Translations under genes and position numbers: made by a program
The notes under the pieces: model-generated
Told to the model about the DNA's origin: nothing
The model's input: the letters and a program-made list of their open reading frames with translations, nothing else
Database searches by the model: none
Part shown: positions 1 through 14,464 of the stretch, in pieces
Layout: every line of letters starts with the position of its first letter
How positions within the stretch are numbered: position 1 is the first letter of the stretch
Source: Chloroflexota bacterium
GTDB taxonomy: Bacteria; Chloroflexota; Dehalococcoidia; UBA1127; JACQUN01
Direction: 5' to 3'
Length of the DNA: 14,981 bases
Assembly (NCBI GenBank): GCA_016210285.1
Contig: JACQUN010000060.1
Span: 1 to 14,981, forward strand

Positions 1-664
1 TGATTGCCAGAGTGCGCCCCCTGTGGTCCTCGGCCAGTACCCCCAGGATCTCCTTGGTGCGCGGGTCCTGGACGAGTTCCATGGCTGGGGTGCGGTACAG
101 AACCTCGATACCGCGCTTCTGCACGTTCCGGGAGAGGAGGTCGAACCAGCCCCAGCCCGTCTGGTACGCGCGGATCCCATAGATTGAATCGGCGCCTGGC
201 AACTCAGGGTGCGCGACCGCCAGTGCGAAGCCTTGCTCTTTCTCTTCGGGAGTGGCCGTCTTCATGTTAGGCCGCAGGAAGTACGTCTCGTAGTCGGCCC
301 CGAGGGACCACAACCACTCGTGATTGCGCGCCACTTCCTGTGCCCACGCCCACAGCGTATCGTCAGGGACGTCGCTCATCCCGAACACCGCAATCTTGGC
401 CTTCTGATACGTGAAGAGGTCCTCCGCATTGGTCGCACAAAGGTGGAGCGCCCCGCTCATCCTGCTGTTGGGGTGGTGCCGCACCTCCACGACGTTCCCC
501 TGCGAGTCCACCACATCCGCCGGCAGCTTCTCCAGTATCAACACGCTGGATCCAGCATCGTGTGCGGTGATGGCGGCGGTTGCCCCAGCCCCGCCGTACC
601 CCACGATGACCACATCCGCTTCCATGTGCCAATCGGGAAGGTCTACGTACGACCTAGTCGTCAT
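1..664 (-). CDS. FAD-dependent oxidoreductase (fumarate reductase / 3-ketosteroid dehydrogenase-like), N-terminal part, cut by window edge
   Basis: Reading the minus strand from ATG at 664 gives an open frame of 221 codons with no stop before base 1, so the C-terminus lies outside the window. Residues 15-46 form a Rossmann FAD-binding fold: a hydrophobic strand (ADVVIVGYGGAGA), GxGxxG at G22-x-G24-x-x-G27, and the ribose-binding acid E45 ending the second strand (SVLILEK). A later stretch (about 66-75, PNSRMSGALHLC) resembles the substrate-side region of the fumarate reductase/KstD flavoprotein group. Known members reduce or dehydrogenate C=C bonds in fumarate, urocanate or steroids; the substrate cannot be told from this half. 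The start is well supported: AAGGAGGT at 676-669 lies 4 nt before ATG, behind a near-consensus promoter at 702-729. No cytochrome or membrane partner is visible upstream. Family confidence is good, substrate unknown. Confidence 0.85.
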   Translation of the reverse strand, partial: MTTRSYVDLPDWHMEADVVIVGYGGAGATAAITAHDAGSSVLILEKLPADVVDSQGNVVEVRHHPNSRMSGALHLCATNAEDLFTYQKAKIAVFGMSDVPDDTLWAWAQEVARNHEWLWSLGADYETYFLRPNMKTATPEEKEQGFALAVAHPELPGADSIYGIRAYQTGWGWFDLLSRNVQKRGIEVLYRTPAMELVQDPRTKEILGVLAEDHRGRTLAI

Positions 665-2612: not shown

Positions 2613-2999
2613 CTAGCCGGTGCCATTGGGGGACTCCGGGCCCTTCCCGTCCAGCGCCTCCAGCACTCGAAACAGCTCCCGGTCGCTGGGGTCAGGGTCT
2701 CGGTAGGGCTTCACCCAGACGCCGGAGTACTTCTCCACCAGGTAGCGATCGTCATCCACAATCATGTCCGGCTTGACAGGGCAGTCGCTATCCTTGTCCA
2801 GGCACTCCTCCACCCAGGCCTCCAGCCCATACGTCCTCACAAGGCGTTCAGCGTGGGGCTTTCCGGTAGCAGACCAGAGGTAGATGGTGTGGCCCAGAGC
2901 CCTCACGCGGGAGAAGACCTCCCGGACTCCTGGGCGCAACGCCCAACTGTTCCCTACCGAGTAAAGGAGCGTCAGGTCCACGTCAAAGAAGATGCGCAT
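2613..2999 (-). CDS. Small HAD-superfamily hydrolase
   Basis: A compact 128-residue HAD phosphatase. Motif I is FFDVDLT with nucleophile D6 and acid/base D8; motif II is the serine in YLWSATG (S43); motif III lysine is K76 (PVKPDM); motif IV is the acidic run VDDD (82-84). There is no cap domain, since only about 30 residues separate motifs I and II, so it belongs to the capless group that often acts on large phosphorylated substrates, proteins or nucleic-acid ends. The C-terminus (ESPNGTG) is unstructured. The ATG at 2999 has GAGG only 1 nt away, an unusually close SD, yet no earlier start gives motif I a better context. It is convergent with the MidA gene (52 bp between stops) and divergent from the peroxiredoxin, with its own promoter at 3029-3057. 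Substrate unknown. Confidence 0.82.
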   Translation of the reverse strand: MRIFFDVDLTLLYSVGNSWALRPGVREVFSRVRALGHTIYLWSATGKPHAERLVRTYGLEAWVEECLDKDSDCPVKPDMIVDDDRYLVEKYSGVWVKPYRDPDPSDRELFRVLEALDGKGPESPNGTG

Positions 3000-3115: not shown

Positions 3116-3148
3116 TTGGAAAAAGGCGACTGATAAGGTACAATTATC
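3116..3148 (+). promoter_or_regulatory. Promoter of the peroxiredoxin gene with an overlapping inverted repeat
   Basis: TTGGAA (3116-3121), a 17-bp spacer and TACAAT (3139-3144) form a good sigma-70 promoter. The inverted repeat GATAA (3132-3136) / TTATC (3144-3148), separated by 7 bp, straddles the -10 element and could be an operator. Its regulator is not in view. Confidence 0.6.
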
Positions 3149-3180: not shown

Positions 3181-3205
3181 AGTTTGACGCATTGAGGGAG
3201 GGACC

Positions 3206-3667
3206 GTGCCCGCTGAGATCGCGCAGTCTGCGCCAGAGTTCGCCAAGACAACCAATGCCAATGAGGGTATCAGCCTGAGCAGCCTTAGGGGGAAAAACGT
3301 CATCCTGGCCTTCATCGTCCACGCCTTCACCGGTGGCTGAGCGGACGAGCTCTCCAACCTCCGGCGCGACTACCGGAGGTTCCAGGAGGCAAATGCCCAG
3401 GTACTGGGCATCAGCACTGACACCCGCCACGCCCTGAACATGTTCGCCGCCACCATGGGGGGACTTCCCTTCCCGCTCGTCTCGGACTACCACCCCATCG
3501 GCGAGGTCGCCAAGGCATACGGGGTCTGGAATGAGGGGCAGGGCCGCGCCTTCCGCGCCTGCTTCATCATCGACAAGGACGGAGTGATGCGCTGGAAGAA
3601 GGTGTACGAGCGGGGCATACCGGACACGAATGAGCTGCTGGCGGAGTTGGCCAAGCTGCCCACCTAG
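3206..3667 (+). CDS. Peroxiredoxin with selenocysteine (in-frame TGA) at the peroxidatic position
   Basis: GTG 3206 follows GGGAGG (3196-3201 region) at normal spacing. The frame runs 153 residues to TAG 3665-3667, interrupted only by TGA at 3338-3340, codon 45. Before it: residues 1-44 with the AhpC/TSA opening (SAPEFA, then SLSSLRGKNVILAFIVHAFTGG). After it: ADELSNLRRDYRRFQ, VLGISTD, FPLVSDY, VAKAYGV and FIIDKDGVMR, all collinear with AhpE/Bcp-type peroxiredoxins. The family active site is T-x-x-C-[TS]-x-E; here T42-G-G-TGA-A-D-E, so the stop falls exactly on the peroxidatic cysteine. A SECIS-like hairpin lies 15 nt downstream (3356-3381). Conserved catalytic Arg is R117. The expected role is reduction of peroxides, with the selenolate as nucleophile. 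The usual Pro three residues before Thr is His (H39). Only one Cys remains (C119). An ordinary nonsense mutation or sequencing error of TGC is the alternative; conceptual translation without Sec decoding would miscall this gene as a 75-residue fragment or pseudogene. Confidence 0.85.
3356..3381 (+). promoter_or_regulatory. Candidate bacterial SECIS element
   Basis: AACCTCCGG (3356-3364) pairs perfectly with CCGGAGGTT (3373-3381) around the loop CGCGACTA. The stem begins 15 nt after the TGA and the apical loop starts 24 nt after it. Published rules for bacterial SECIS elements ask for a stem-loop just 3' of the UGA, a small apical loop with a G among its first two bases and a UGA-to-loop distance of roughly 16-37 nt; the loop here opens C-G and meets all three. 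It lies inside the coding region, as in bacterial fdhF-type genes, where SelB binds the loop. Confidence 0.72.
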
Positions 3668-3812: not shown

Positions 3813-4673
3813 GTGGCGAGGCGAAGCCCCATCTTCCAGGAAGGGGACCTGGCCCTCCTGGTGGACCGGAAGGGGCGGCGCTATCTCCTCAAGCTGGACG
3901 CCTCGGCGGTGTTCCATACCCACATGGGGCCATTGCCTCACACGACCATCATCGGCCAAACGGATGGGTGTCGGCTCACCATCGGCGGACAGCGGGTTCT
4001 GGCGCTGAAGCCCACGCTCGCAGAGTACATCCAGGAGATCCCACGGGCAACGCAGATCATCTACCCCAAGGACATCGTCGCCATTCTCACGCATGGCGAC
4101 ATCTTCCCCGGCGCCAAAGTGGTGGAGCCGGTCCTGGGCACCGGGGCACTCACCCTGGCCCTCATGCAAGCGGTGGGCGGCTCAGGGCAGGTGGTCTCCT
4201 ACGAAATCAAGGGGGAGATAGTAGCCAGGGCGCTGAAGAACATCCACCGGGTGTTTCCAGAGCCGGCAAACCTGACGGTAAAGGTCGCCGACATCTACCA
4301 GGGGATCCAGGAGCGGGACGTAGACCGCCTGGTCCTCGACCTTCCTGAGCCCTGGCGTCTGGTGGCGGGCGCTGCGGAGGCGCTCGCCCCGGGGGGCGTT
4401 CTCCTCAGCTACCTGCCCACGGTCCTCCAGGTGCATCGCCTGGTGATGGCCCTGAATAGCCACCCCCTCTTTGATCAGGTGGAGAGCTTTGAGCTCCTCC
4501 TCCGGCCCTGGCACGTCACCGCCCGCAGCGTGCGCCCCGTCCACCGGATGGTCGCCCACACGGGATTCATCACCATCGCCCGCAAGTGCGCGCAGGGCAA
4601 GCTCCTTCGACCCGAGGACACGGAGCTGCCCCCACAGGAAGGGGTTGAGCAAGAGCCTGCCCTGGAGCCTTGA
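3813..4673 (+). CDS. trmI: tRNA (adenine-58-N1)-methyltransferase TrmI
   Basis: A 286-residue class I methyltransferase. The N-terminal small beta domain (residues 1-75: GDLALLVDRKGRRYLLKL and similar) precedes the TrmI marker QIIYPKDIVAIL (81-92), which leads into SAM motif I at E105-PVLGTGALT; V-V-S-Y-E (127-131) ends strand 2 and the catalytic-loop motif is DLPEPW beginning at D176. The C-terminal R-P-V-H-R-M-V-A-H-T-G-F segment also fits the family. The enzyme methylates N1 of A58 in the T-loop of tRNA as a homotetramer, using SAM. Start GTG 3813 has AAGGAG (3802-3807) 5 nt upstream; a longer frame to 3630 overlaps the peroxiredoxin gene and has no family sequence. Motif I reads EPVLGTGA where most members have E-x-G-T-G-S-G, a small variation. 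It heads a probable operon with the HD gene 21 nt downstream. Confidence 0.92.
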   Translation: MARRSPIFQEGDLALLVDRKGRRYLLKLDASAVFHTHMGPLPHTTIIGQTDGCRLTIGGQRVLALKPTLAEYIQEIPRATQIIYPKDIVAILTHGDIFPGAKVVEPVLGTGALTLALMQAVGGSGQVVSYEIKGEIVARALKNIHRVFPEPANLTVKVADIYQGIQERDVDRLVLDLPEPWRLVAGAAEALAPGGVLLSYLPTVLQVHRLVMALNSHPLFDQVESFELLLRPWHVTARSVRPVHRMVAHTGFITIARKCAQGKLLRPEDTELPPQEGVEQEPALEP

Positions 4674-6981: not shown

Positions 6982-7773
6982 TCAGGAGGGTTGGCTGAGG
7001 GCGGGAAGAACGAGCCCTCGCACCCTCGCGCTCACCTGGTCAATAAGAATCACCACCACCAGGGTGACCAGAAGGGCCATCATCAGGTTCTGGTACTGAA
7101 GGAGCTGCACGTAACCCAGCAAGTAAAAGCCGATGCCGCCTGCCCCCACGAACCCCATGATGGATGAGGCGCGCACATTGTACTCAAAGATGAACAGGAG
7201 CTGGCTGAGGATAGTGTTAGCCGCCTCAGGCAACAGGGCATAGCGCATCAACTGCAGGCGGTTGCACCCGACACTCCGTACCGCCTCGGTGACCTCCTGG
7301 TCTATCCCTTCAAAGGCCTCATAGTAGAGCTTGCCAAGGTATCCCAGGGTGTAGAAGGCGATGCCCAGAGCTCCAGCTCGAGGCCCCAGGCCAAAGGCCA
7401 CCACGAAGACGATGGCCCACAGAAGGGAAGGCACCGTCCGGACGATCCCCAGGAAGACCTTCAGGGGGGTGGTTATCCAGAGCGGGAAAAGGGTACGGGT
7501 GCTGGGCAGCGCCAGGGGAAGGGCCATGACAAAACCCAACAAGGTCCCCACAAAAGCGATTTGAAGGGTTTCTAGCATAGCCCGAGAAAGGGCGGGGAGG
7601 ACTGCTGCATTTGGCGGGAAGAGGGAAGTGGAGAAGATGGCTATATTGCCGATGCCCCGTCCCCATCGGGAAGCATCCAGCAGGCCCATATTCCCCATGG
7701 CCAGCAGGGCCAGGAGAGCAATAGTGACATGGGGTAGCCAGGAGCGCACCCAGCGCTGGCTCACTTCATCCAC
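6982..7773 (-). CDS. phnE: Phosphonate/phosphite ABC transporter permease PhnE
   Basis: A 263-residue inner-membrane permease with about six hydrophobic segments (for example residues 16-33, 62-90, 104-130, 135-145, 205-222 and 232-250). The cytoplasmic coupling EAA loop is EAVRSVGCNRLQLMRYALLPEA (split here by its key residues E-A-x(3)-G at about 166-171 and L-P at 183-184), which docks on the ATPase. The pattern and length are those of PhnE, the single permease type that works as a dimer with PhnC. ATG 7773 lies inside the last codons of phnC: the genes overlap by 13 bp, so they are translationally coupled. It is the last gene of the phnDCE unit and converges on the CE7-like gene 116 bp away. 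No C-P lyase or phosphite dehydrogenase gene is present, so the imported compound stays open. Confidence 0.88.
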   Translation of the reverse strand: MDEVSQRWVRSWLPHVTIALLALLAMGNMGLLDASRWGRGIGNIAIFSTSLFPPNAAVLPALSRAMLETLQIAFVGTLLGFVMALPLALPSTRTLFPLWITTPLKVFLGIVRTVPSLLWAIVFVVAFGLGPRAGALGIAFYTLGYLGKLYYEAFEGIDQEVTEAVRSVGCNRLQLMRYALLPEAANTILSQLLFIFEYNVRASSIMGFVGAGGIGFYLLGYVQLLQYQNLMMALLVTLVVVILIDQVSARVRGLVLPALSQPS

Positions 7774-8525
7774 CTCATAAGAGTCTCCAGATTGACTGCC
7801 GATGCTGACCCTTCGTGGACCTTCTCACCATCGCTAAGAAACACCGCCTTGTCCCCATAGCGGGCCACCAGCTCTAGCTCGTGGGTGGTGATGACAAGGG
7901 TCACTCCCTGCCGGGCAATGCCCCGGACGATGTCCATGATCTCCAGGGCTCGTGGGGTGTCCAGTTGCGAGACGAACTCGTCCGCCAGGATGACCCGTGG
8001 GTTCTGCATCAGGGCCCGGGCGATAGCCACTCGCTGGCGCTCGCCGCCGCTCAGGTGATAGCCCTTCTCGTCCAGCTTGTGTCCAAGGCCCAGGGTCTGC
8101 AAAACCTCCCGCGCCTGCAGTACGTACTCCGTGGGGAAAACCCGCACCAGGGAAGCCAGGGTACTGGTCCTCCCGAGGGCGCCAACCAGGGCATTCTGGA
8201 GGACGGTCAAGTTCCGCACTAGCCCGAGGGTCTGCGGGATGTATGCCACCCGGCGGCCCAGCTCCCGCCCCACCTTGCCACGTAGCCCGCCGGTGACCTC
8301 AGCCCCTAGCACCATGATAGACCCTCGCTGGGGTCTCACGAGCCCCTTCAGGGCTTTGAGAAGCGTGGTCTTCCCGCTGCCGCTAGGCCCTAGAATCATG
8401 CAGAGGATTCCAGGCTCTACCTGCAGGCTGACGCCTTTCAAGACCGGTTGCGACCGGTTATAGGAAAACCAGACATCCTGGGCCTCAATGGCCCGGGGTG
8501 TCTCTCTCCCCATTACTTCCGCCAT
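7761..8525 (-). CDS. phnC: Phosphonate/phosphite ABC transporter ATP-binding protein PhnC
   Basis: A 254-residue ABC ATPase. Walker A is G46-PSGSGKT, Q-loop Q98 (YIPQ), signature LSGGERQ (158-164), Walker B VILADE (D182, E183) with D-loop SQLD, and switch H215 (TTHE). The order phnD-phnC-phnE and the PhnE and PhnD partners identify it as the phosphonate-type importer motor. The start is uncertain: the frame stays open to 8618. ATG 8525 gives a short N-terminus close to typical PhnC; ATG 8513 is also possible; ATG 8579 has a better SD (AGGGGA, 5 nt away) but adds an 18-residue basic extension (MLRQQRIRPCPG...) not expected in the family. Two tandem hairpins lie between it and phnD. Confidence 0.87.
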   Translation of the reverse strand: MAEVMGRETPRAIEAQDVWFSYNRSQPVLKGVSLQVEPGILCMILGPSGSGKTTLLKALKGLVRPQRGSIMVLGAEVTGGLRGKVGRELGRRVAYIPQTLGLVRNLTVLQNALVGALGRTSTLASLVRVFPTEYVLQAREVLQTLGLGHKLDEKGYHLSGGERQRVAIARALMQNPRVILADEFVSQLDTPRALEIMDIVRGIARQGVTLVITTHELELVARYGDKAVFLSDGEKVHEGSASAVNLETLMRWMK

Positions 8526-8630
8526 TCGTAGCTTCCCATCAGGGCCTGGACAGGGCCGTATCCTTTGCTGCCTGAGCATGGTATCCCCTTGTACGCTCCT
8601 GGGCAACAGGGCCATCAATCGGGGCAGTCA

Positions 8631-8694
8631 CCTGGTGAGATGGTGCACCAGGGAGCGGGAGACGGCACCGCAGTCCTCAGGCTGCGGTGCCGTC
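8631..8694 (-). repeat. Two tandem hairpins in the phnD-phnC intercistronic region
   Basis: GACGGCACCGCAG (8661-8673) pairs perfectly with CTGCGGTGCCGTC (8682-8694), loop 8 nt, starting 8 nt past the phnD stop. Next to it CCTGGTG (8631-8637) pairs with CACCAGG (8646-8652), and the perfect palindrome TGGTGCACCA (8641-8650) lies within. No T run follows on the transcribed strand, so these are not standard terminators. Position after the binding-protein gene is typical of hairpins that protect the upstream message or reduce downstream expression. Confidence 0.65.
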
Positions 8695-8701
8695 ATGCCC
8701 A

Positions 8702-9697
8702 TTACCGCAGACTTTCCGTGAAGGCGAGCCTGGTGAGGTCCAGCGCCTTAGATAGCCCAGACAGGTGCTCTTCGGTGCTGGTCGCCTGGAACCGGACGAA
8801 GATTCCGGAGATGAACTTCCGCATCAGGGGCCGGTTTTCCGGCGTCCCCAGTTCCAGCAGGGCCTCCTGGAGCTTGGAGCGCAGCGGCTCCCTCAACTCC
8901 TTGCCGAATACTACAGCGTGGGAAGGGATGGGTCCCTGCTGCTCCAGGATCCGGGTGCCGTCCAGGACCTCCCGGTACAGCCTCTCCGAGACATCTCCTG
9001 CGATGATGGTGACATCTACCTGGCCCTGCTTCAGGGCCTGCCACGCCTGGGCGTACCCGCCAGCAAAGAGCACCTCACCGAAGAACTGCTTGGGGTCAGG
9101 CTCTTTTCCTGCAGGGTCAACAAGGCCCAGCTCCATCAGCCGGGCCATCGGGAAAACGTATCCCGAAGTGGATAGCGGGCTGGAAAAGGCCACCTTCTTC
9201 CCCTTCAGATCGCTGAGAGTCCGGTAGGGGCTATCCTTGCGGACGACCCAGTAGGAGAAGTAGAAGGGCTTCTCCTGCATCTCCTGACCAATGACCACCT
9301 CCCGGACCTCGGCCAGGGCCACCGTCGCGCCGGCGTTCTTGGCCGCCAGAGCTGCGGGCCAAGCGCTCAGAAAAGCGGCGTGGGCATGGCCAAACCTGAG
9401 TGCCTCAATAACGCCCCCGTAGAGGGTAGGAACCACGATCTCAACATCTGCTCCTGTGCGTGCTTCCAGAAAGCGCTCCAGCTCCTTGGACTCTGCGGAT
9501 AGAGCCTCTGGGCTGGCCGTGGGGAGGATGGCGATGACCAGCTTGTCTTTGGTCGCCTTTACCTCCGGGGTTGGCGCCTGGGCTGCTGCAGCCTGGGTAG
9601 GGAGAGCGCTAGGCGCAGGAGCCGGGCTGGCACGGCAGGCCCCCAGCAGGAGACCACCGAAGAGGACTGCCAGGACGACAAAGACCAACCGGACCAA
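8702..9697 (-). CDS. phnD: Phosphonate/phosphite ABC transporter substrate-binding lipoprotein PhnD
   Basis: A 331-residue binding protein. Residues 1-21 are a lipoprotein signal: V-R, a hydrophobic run, and lipobox L18-G-A-C21, followed by a Pro/Ala linker (SPAPAPSALPTQ). The mature part has the PhnD-like fold markers: LVIAILPTASPE at strand 1, LEARTGADVEIVVPTLYGGVIEAL, the FGHAHAAFLSAWP loop, SYWVVRKDSPYRTLSDLKGKKVAFSSPLSTSGY and GQVDVTIIAGD. The start is best placed at TTG 9697, because AGGAGG (9708-9703 on the minus strand) precedes it by 5 nt; the TTG at 9712 would overlap that SD. Phosphonate, phosphite, methylphosphonate or, for the wider TauA/PhnD clan, other anions could be the ligand. 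The gene is the first complete one downstream of the promoter at 9953-9981. Confidence 0.88.
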   Translation of the reverse strand: MVRLVFVVLAVLFGGLLLGACRASPAPAPSALPTQAAAAQAPTPEVKATKDKLVIAILPTASPEALSAESKELERFLEARTGADVEIVVPTLYGGVIEALRFGHAHAAFLSAWPAALAAKNAGATVALAEVREVVIGQEMQEKPFYFSYWVVRKDSPYRTLSDLKGKKVAFSSPLSTSGYVFPMARLMELGLVDPAGKEPDPKQFFGEVLFAGGYAQAWQALKQGQVDVTIIAGDVSERLYREVLDGTRILEQQGPIPSHAVVFGKELREPLRSKLQEALLELGTPENRPLMRKFISGIFVRFQATSTEEHLSGLSKALDLTRLAFTESLR

Positions 9698-9774
9698 GGT
9701 GCACCTCCTCAATTCAGCTTGCGCCGCAAGAACCGTTCACGCGCCGGGTTGGGATTTCCAACGCTTGTGCCGTG

Positions 9775-12710: not shown

Positions 12711-12743
12711 GGAGCCAGCACGTTGAAGAAGGTGGGAGGAGCT

Positions 12744-13397
12744 ATGGCAAGACCGCACTTTATCCCAAGGTCGCTGAACTTCCTACCCAGGGAGGAGAAG
12801 TTCTTCTTTCTCCTCCACCAGGGTGCGGTGAATATCCAGAAGGTCTCCAAGAAGCTTCAGAACCTCATGGAGCAGTATGAGAATGTGCCGGAGAAGGTGG
12901 CCGAGATCAAGGTGCTGGAGGAGTTCGGCGACACGATTATCCACGACATCATGCACGCCCTCCACCGCACCTTTGTGACTCCTATCGACCGGGAGGATGT
13001 GGCCCAGCTCGCGGAGCGGCTGGACGACGTGGTGGATTCCATCGATGAGGCAGCCCACGACATGCTGGAATACAAGATCGAAGCCACCACGCCCCGGTCC
13101 CGGGAGCTGGCTGAGATCATCGTCAAGTGCGCCGATGAGCTGGAGAAGGCCACCTCCAAGCTCCACTTTCGGGGCGCGCGGCTGGAGGAGATCCTGCCCC
13201 ACGCAGTGGAGATCAACCGCCTGGAGAATGAGGCCGACCATGTTGTCAGCAAAGCCATGGCGGAGATCTTTTCCAATGGAATGGACCCCATCACCATCAT
13301 CAAGTGGCGCGACGTCTATCAGCAGCTCGAGGCGGCGACCGATCGGGCCGAAGACGCCGCCAACGTGCTGGAAGGGATCGTCCTGAAGCACATGTAG
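12744..13397 (+). CDS. DUF47 / PhoU-like accessory protein of the Pit transporter
   Basis: A 217-residue all-helical protein of the DUF47 family (COG1392, YkaA-like), distantly related to PhoU. It begins R-P-x-F-I-P-R...REEKFFFLLHQGAVNI and has the acid-rich metal-binding repeats E-x-x-x-D: EFGDTIIHDIMHALHRTFVTPIDREDV (key residues D73, H77, D89, D92 area), LDDVVDSIDEAA, and in the second half EINRLENEADHV. The C-terminus I-x-x-W-R-D-V-Y-x-x-L-E-x-x-x-D-x-x-E-D-A-A is the family signature. These proteins are nearly always encoded beside pit and probably gate it. ATG 12744 has GGGAGGAG 2-3 nt upstream at GCT; the TTG at 12723 would only add seven residues. It precedes pit by 71 bp on the same strand. 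Confidence 0.9.
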   Translation: MARPHFIPRSLNFLPREEKFFFLLHQGAVNIQKVSKKLQNLMEQYENVPEKVAEIKVLEEFGDTIIHDIMHALHRTFVTPIDREDVAQLAERLDDVVDSIDEAAHDMLEYKIEATTPRSRELAEIIVKCADELEKATSKLHFRGARLEEILPHAVEINRLENEADHVVSKAMAEIFSNGMDPITIIKWRDVYQQLEAATDRAEDAANVLEGIVLKHM

Positions 13398-13468
13398 CAC
13401 CTGGAACATGGACACGCCTTCCTTGATCACGGCCAGTCTGGAATTGGGAGGGGCCTCGACATCGCCCG

Positions 13469-14464
13469 ATGTTTGAGAACTCGCTGACCTTACTCGTCAT
13501 CGTCATCGCCGTTGCGGTTATTTTCGACTTTGCGAACGGCTTCAACGACGCAGCCAACGCCATCGCCACGGTTGTCTCCACCAGGGTTCTGAGACCGCTC
13601 TATGCAGTGCTCATGGCGGCGTCGTTTAACTTCGTCGGCGCCGTCACCGGGACCGCCGTGGCCAAGGTGATCGGGAAAGGCATCGTCGCGCCGGAGGCCA
13701 TCACCCTTGTCACCGTTGCCGCAGGAGTAGCGGCGGCTGCTGTGTGGGTGATCCTCGCCACCCGGGCGGGTTTGCCGATCAGTGGCAGTCACAGCCTCAT
13801 CGCCGGCGTGGCTGGGGCGGGGGTTGCTACTGGTGGCTTTGGCGTCCTGATAGCAAGCGGGGTGAGTAAGGTCCTGCTGGGCGTTCTCTTCGCCCCCCTC
13901 TTCGGCTTCCTTGGCGGCTACCTTCTCATGCTGGGCTTCTACTGGCTTTTCCGCCGCGCGAGGCCCAGTATAATAGGCGGCATTTTCGGTCGGCTCCAGA
14001 TCCTCTCGGCGGCGGCCATGGCCTTTAGCCACGGCTCCAACGACGCCCAGAAGACGATGGGGGTCATCTCCCTGGCCCTTTTCGTGGGCGGTGCTATTGA
14101 CAAGTTCTACATCCCCTTCTGGGTGATCGTCCTCTCGGCGGTGGTGATGGCCGCTGGGACCTATGCCGGCGGGTGGAAGGTTGTGCGAACCCTGGGAGTG
14201 GGCATTGTGCAGATGCGGCCCGTCCACGGCTTTACTGCCGAGAGCGCCGCTGCGGGTATCATTGAAACCGCGACCCGCCTGGGGTTCCCCTTGAGCACCA
14301 CCCACGTCATCTCCTCCACCATCATGGGCCAGGGGGCCACCCGGCGCCTCTCAGCGGTGCGCTGGGGCGTGGCGCGGCGCATCGTGCTGGCATGGGTGCT
14401 GACCTTCCCCTTCGGCGCCCTCCTGGGGGCGGGACTGGAGAAGCTGCTCCAGGCAGCCCTCTAG
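13469..14464 (+). CDS. pit: Inorganic phosphate transporter, PiT family
   Basis: A 331-residue membrane carrier of the PiT family. Both PiT signature repeats are present: [19 protein letters not shown] from residue 20 and [16 protein letters not shown] from residue 185, and each half also has the S-x-S-H/S-T-T-H loop (PISGSHSLI near 103, [10 protein letters not shown] near 275). About ten hydrophobic helices are seen. The protein imports metal-phosphate or phosphate with a cation gradient. The length is short compared with E. coli PitA (about 500) but normal for the compact bacterial and archaeal class. ATG 13469 has only a distant G-rich SD (GGGAGGGG ending about 16 nt upstream), and no earlier start codon is in frame, so translation may depend on the preceding DUF47 gene. 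Its TAG overlaps the stop of the convergent helicase gene. Confidence 0.92.

Follow-up and report, generated by a model that had tools for sequence, protein, structure and literature searches.

Peroxiredoxins with selenocysteine (Sec) in a TxxU motif (Prx, PF00578/COG1225) are named among the bacterial selenoprotein families in passages of PMC13188914 and PMC9312934, appear also in a passage of PMC1794560, and are counted in part of PMC2398784 among the abundant marine selenoproteins. The longer motif, PxxxTxxU, is called highly conserved in a passage of PMC13188914, and the active-site proline itself is described, again in passages of the papers, as a barrier to solvent (PMC3337327) and as strictly conserved (PMC5719442). 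By family description, the PrxU type of Eubacterium acidaminophilum is like the gene presented here: it belongs to PF00578, has Sec at the peroxidatic position of TxxU and combines UGA with a downstream hairpin. The Prx-like thiol:disulfide oxidoreductase selenoproteins are also assigned to PF00578 in a passage of PMC13188914, but they carry Sec at the Thr position and keep the Cys (UxxC, as in WUGTC), unlike our gene.

Among enzymes that use cysteine the closest one is the 1-Cys peroxiredoxin AhpE of Mycobacterium tuberculosis, which is the best match by both sequence and structure, is collinear with our protein and has the same Thr and catalytic Arg; however, AhpE has Cys45 and Pro38 where our protein has Sec45 and Val38. 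The reductant of AhpE is the mycothiol/mycoredoxin system. Bcp4 of Sulfolobus solfataricus (3hjp) is a Bcp-class enzyme that, unlike our gene product, is not a selenoprotein judging by the title of its structure.

Since Sec-peroxiredoxins with TxxU are already listed, the gene is one more member of a known family, and the feature that sets it apart is the missing Pro of PxxxTxxU. The family description treats this residue as conserved to a high degree, though not as defining; 57 of the other 81 Chloroflexota Sec forms that we compared have replaced it, like the window gene. In the portions of the open-licence PMC literature covered, no account of a Sec-peroxiredoxin from Chloroflexota, or of a motif without the Pro, was seen. 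The main text of five selenoprotein reviews and surveys from 2008 to 2026 holds no word starting with "chloroflex"; a 2006 survey has two, and the passage shown concerns something other than Sec-peroxiredoxin.

The peroxiredoxin gene and its in-frame TGA

The window, i.e., the whole stretch of 14,981 nucleotides analysed, carries on its forward strand an AhpE/Bcp-like gene of 153 codons (3206..3667) with a GTG start and a TAG stop. Direct reading of the frame gives a single internal stop, the TGA of codon 45 (3338..3340), which falls on the peroxidatic residue. A previous reading from the sequence alone (hereafter the sequence-only reading) had proposed that this codon specifies Sec within a frame collinear with the AhpE/Bcp family on both sides, and this collinearity was borne out: the Pfam AhpC-TSA profile (PF00578) spans the TGA (residues 5–130, E = 9.9e-33), and the alignment with M. 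tuberculosis AhpE runs across it with two one-residue gaps, both elsewhere. The active-site motif is T42-G-G-U45-A-D-E48, exactly as had been claimed, although the description of TxxCxxE as universal was too broad; the motif is common, and many Chloroflexota forms have Q at its end. Thr42 (3329..3331) is the catalytic Thr of TxxU by direct reading and by alignment with AhpE. Arg117 (3554..3556) aligns with the catalytic Arg116 of AhpE and is invariant across a 53-sequence alignment; for AhpE an R116A mutant structure (4xih) exists. Apart from codon 45 the only Cys is C119, in agreement with the near absence of other cysteines noted before. The AlphaFold model of the protein has a mean pLDDT of 96, and its best Foldseek matches are structures of M. 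tuberculosis AhpE (TM 0.93 and rmsd 1.5 to 4x1u).

The GTG start at 3206 is supported by the homologue of a Chloroflexota MAG (locus L001), which opens with MPAEIGEVAP where the window protein has VPAEIAQSAP. The Shine-Dalgarno sequence and the promoter that had been pointed out are represented by GGGAGG, 4 nt before the GTG (3196..3201, forward strand), and by a promoter-like site, TTGGAA-17-TACAAT (3116..3144, forward strand), which matches the consensus at 9/12 positions, a consensus match only, with two overlapping matches to the motif vs. 0.2 expected by chance. The gene is flanked on one side by a HAD-like protein on the reverse strand (2613..2999), named by eye and with no Pfam family found, and on the other by a TrmI-type tRNA m1A58 methyltransferase on the forward strand (3813..4673), for which TGA is the ordinary stop codon. 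The latter served as taxonomic marker; its best named matches are from Chloroflexi, SAR202 and Dehalococcoidia, and by this gene the closest of 400 Chloroflexota genomes is G286. Comparison of the window with plasmids gave no DNA match. Farther along the window we found a phosphonate-type ABC transporter cluster (6982–9712, reverse strand) and, on the forward strand, a DUF47/PiT pair for phosphate transport (12723–14464); the binding protein and DUF47 were assigned by Pfam, the other genes by eye.

TGA codon and Sec-decoding genes in the relatives

Of the 120 best database homologues, 116 have Cys at the codon 45 position and the other four are gapped there; in many Chloroflexota loci this codon is TGA. 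The L001 protein is 47% identical to that of the window, and the TGA occupies this codon in its gene too, as it does in L002, apparently a near copy of L001 in another bin; the L001 locus has no synteny with the window outside the peroxiredoxin gene. The best match at the level of the order (L190/L219, genome G452) is 59% identical, has TGA at the equivalent of codon 45 and keeps the gene order HAD-peroxiredoxin-TrmI, with identities of 64, 59 and 67%, respectively. L192 (genome G420) has the same codon as well. A draw of 400 genomes over the phylum gave a peroxiredoxin match in 191; among the 150 matches listed, on which this reading is based, weaker ones lying outside, 61 had a TGA, located in 53 of them at TxxU and in eight at the Thr position. 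For 147 genomes of the order to which the closest relatives belong, the 103 best peroxiredoxin matches include 98 with a TGA, accompanied in one case by a TAA; the 29 of these that were read all had the TGA at TxxU. The frames of the relatives, which the sequence-only reading had singled out as a test, are mostly intact apart from this TGA, with extra stops in G488 and within the part of L098 that was read. After filtering, the phylum draw and the window together gave 54 Sec and 87 Cys genes, counts that leave out L031 and L002 (copies of L001), the eight UxxC loci and two Ser loci.

Several of these loci have features of their own. The eight loci with TGA at the Thr position (L146, L148, L158, L161, L164, L167, L170 and L172) keep the Cys (WUGTC and kin), i.e., the UxxC pattern, and represent a second class of Sec peroxiredoxin-like proteins in the same phylum. 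At L195/L220, L198/L232 and L213/L227 the Sec-peroxiredoxin adjoins an intact Cys-peroxiredoxin with Pro, and at L045 and L057 it continues in frame into a C-terminal glutaredoxin domain.

The genes for Sec decoding, a further check put forward by the sequence-only reading, were looked for in the relatives and are present there. The nearest relative, G452, has tRNA-Sec (anticodon TCA), SelA and SelB, the SelB match covering the first 345 of 581 positions, and G001 has tRNA-Sec with the same anticodon, SelA, SelB and SelD. G002, a near twin of G001 in these genes, gave no clear tRNA-Sec, its two best matches reading as tRNA-Trp and tRNA-Leu. The SelD genes of G002 and G001 (L023 and L024) contain one in-frame TGA each, and SelD is probably a selenoprotein itself in these genomes. 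At the cut-offs used, eight close relatives had tRNA-Sec in seven cases, SelB in six and SelA in five, and tRNA-Sec was found in 10 of twelve others. Over the phylum draw it was detected in 296/400 genomes, and more often in those with a listed TGA-containing peroxiredoxin (55/60) than in the others (241/340; p = 4e-4). It went undetected in five of those 60, and also in G434 and G513; incomplete bins may be the explanation for the tRNA-Sec, SelB and SelA genes missing from some relatives. A genome-wide reassignment of UGA, for example to Trp, would also leave the frame open, but it is extremely improbable given that TGA closes six of the window's other 14 gene calls, so that UGA is an ordinary stop here too, that the position is Cys in the database homologues and that the tRNA with anticodon TCA in the relatives is tRNA-Sec.

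Downstream of the TGA, the 108 codons compared with L190 differ at 47 third, 32 first and 27 second positions, and GC3 stays at 0.90. This predominance of third-position differences together with the high GC3 makes the downstream frame look constrained, which argues against the TGA being a nonsense mutation or a sequencing error in an ordinary Cys peroxiredoxin, as does the fact that other assemblies, with homologues of 47–59% identity, and many further loci carry it at this codon; we regard such an accident as very improbable. A further rival is that UGA ends translation and that the back part arises as a product of its own, with translation starting anew at an internal codon (reinitiation). 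A public record, P0003 (95 aa, "redoxin domain-containing protein"), is in fact annotated from an internal start. However, by eye it is the same as the C-terminal portion of L192, whose frame is continuous, the conservation extends over both sides of the TGA, and no activity would be expected of a peroxiredoxin that lacks its N-terminal half and the residue for catalysis. Genes for selenoproteins are prone to annotation in truncated form. We consider reinitiation, too, most unlikely.

RNA folding after the TGA

A putative SECIS hairpin follows the TGA on the forward strand (3352..3388), with an outer stem (3352–3355/3385–3388), an inner stem (3356–3364/3373–3381) and a loop (3365–3372). With 9 bp and, 24 nt after the TGA, a loop of 8 bases whose second base is G, it satisfies the bacterial SECIS rules published in PMC13188914, in the passage that sets them out, as coded in this analysis, and the hairpin claimed before was in this sense confirmed. 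The strict rule in our simplified coding separates poorly, being passed by 16/52 Sec and 15/87 Cys genes. In the comparison with synonymous shuffles, the 48 nt after the TGA of the window gave a folding z of -3.1, the mean z after codon 45 was -1.17 for Sec genes (n = 52) vs. -0.15 for Cys genes (n = 87), L045 and L057 being absent from these counts, and in the order of the window the means were -2.04 (28 Sec) and -0.46 (19 Cys). The corresponding p-values (7e-8 and 8e-6) are too strong because the rows are related. Against dinucleotide shuffles the outcome depended on the segment chosen (3, 12, 13 and 167 of 200 shuffles folded as well in four segments), and the window hairpin is only mildly unusual by this measure.

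Across 29 Sec genes, the outer stem pairing +12..18 with +42..48 was formed in 79.8% of the cells, vs. 48–52% in five slid controls and 67% in a sixth, with modest covariation. RNAalifold gave no consensus structure for the 29 aligned Sec segments of the order, the pairs of the window hairpin were weakly conserved across the other 51 Sec loci, much as in the Cys loci, and Rfam gave no SECIS match. The folding data support a loosely conserved SECIS. The conservation of the TGA across divergent homologues, the Sec-decoding genes of the relatives and the Sec-specific folding of the downstream RNA together support the selenocysteine interpretation of the sequence-only reading, which had also stated, correctly, that Sec-peroxiredoxins are known in some bacteria. 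Judging from this comparative evidence, the catalytic centre of the window peroxiredoxin almost certainly bears selenium, through a stop codon read as Sec.

The missing active-site proline

Where PxxxTxxC has its Pro, seven residues before U45, the window gene has Val38 (3317..3319, forward strand), according to direct reading and alignments. The sequence-only reading was right that the Pro is absent, while the residue that it gave in its place, H39, was off by one. The Pro is kept in all 116 scorable sequences of the 120 best database Cys homologues. Over 188 Chloroflexota genes (from which the copies L219, L220, L227 and L232, and L203, presumed to be a near twin of L001, were left out, as they were from the order-level RNA set), it is kept in 24/82 Sec and 88/106 Cys forms, i.e., it is absent in 58/82 Sec forms, the window included, vs. 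18/106 Cys forms. A two-trait rate model put the rate of Pro loss in Sec lineages at 26–29 times that in the others, with p about 9e-5 for the IQ-TREE and the FastTree trees alike; removal of 25 rows belonging to a large Cys clade gave 8e-5.

An effect of ancestry, in which a few old Sec clades lost the Pro with no functional link to selenium, has to be weighed seriously. Only seven independent Sec/Cys contrasts lie on well-supported branches, over which the sign test was not significant, and neither were the independent-pairs tests of Sec vs. Pro, which are stricter than the rate model (median p of 1 and 0.25). A model with the dependence reversed, Sec gain or loss following from the Pro state, is likewise better than independence, by a smaller margin (p = 0.0095), so the direction of the dependence is not fixed. 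Among the Pro-less Cys forms, five (L221–L225) resemble the Sec clade, with TKGC in four of them, which indicates that Pro can be lost without a strict need for Sec. Their genomes are of 1.4–1.9 Mb; the idea that such forms occupy genomes devoid of tRNA-Sec was dropped, four of the five having kept it. On the other hand, ancestry alone has to face the much faster loss in Sec lineages and the minimum of 16 Pro-state changes that the tree requires, and we consider it possible but doubtful.

We incline, with somewhat better than even confidence, to the view that Sec frees the peroxiredoxin active site from its near-invariant Pro, PxxxTxxU having changed repeatedly in Chloroflexota to V/I/A/H/L/S/TxxxTxxU. 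Judged on the sequences compared, a functional relaxation of the catalytic constraint by selenium is likely, not proved. SelB with Sec-tRNA-Sec would decode the UGA of codon 45, aided by the downstream hairpin. Thr42 and Arg117 would hold the selenolate at position 45, which would then reduce peroxides to alcohol or water, and an external thiol such as glutaredoxin or thioredoxin would regenerate the enzyme, glutaredoxin being hinted at by its fusion in L045 and L057. The Pro that shields the active site from solvent might have turned dispensable because a selenol is already ionised and very reactive, and it would have been replaced several times in the Sec lineages of Chloroflexota, here by Val38. 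The product is most likely a one-Sec peroxidase of the AhpE type with an outside thiol as reductant. The explanation that we prefer as a whole, a one-selenocysteine AhpE/Bcp-type peroxiredoxin in which UGA is decoded as Sec and the Pro is dispensable in Sec lineages, has in our estimate a probability of about 0.93.

Sec-peroxiredoxin is widespread in Chloroflexota and is represented in the databases at least once by a truncated "redoxin" piece, P0003 being the public example that holds the back part of such a protein. From this family, and with tRNA-Sec in 296/400 sampled genomes, it seems that a good part of a large environmental phylum can use selenium in a basic antioxidant enzyme. If upheld in assays, the link between Sec and Pro would be a direct test of the role of the active-site Pro, and if true also of how the swap of sulfur for selenium alters the constraints on an enzyme. 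If true, the relaxation by Sec would amount to a natural experiment on the reason for the near-constant presence of this Pro in Cys enzymes.
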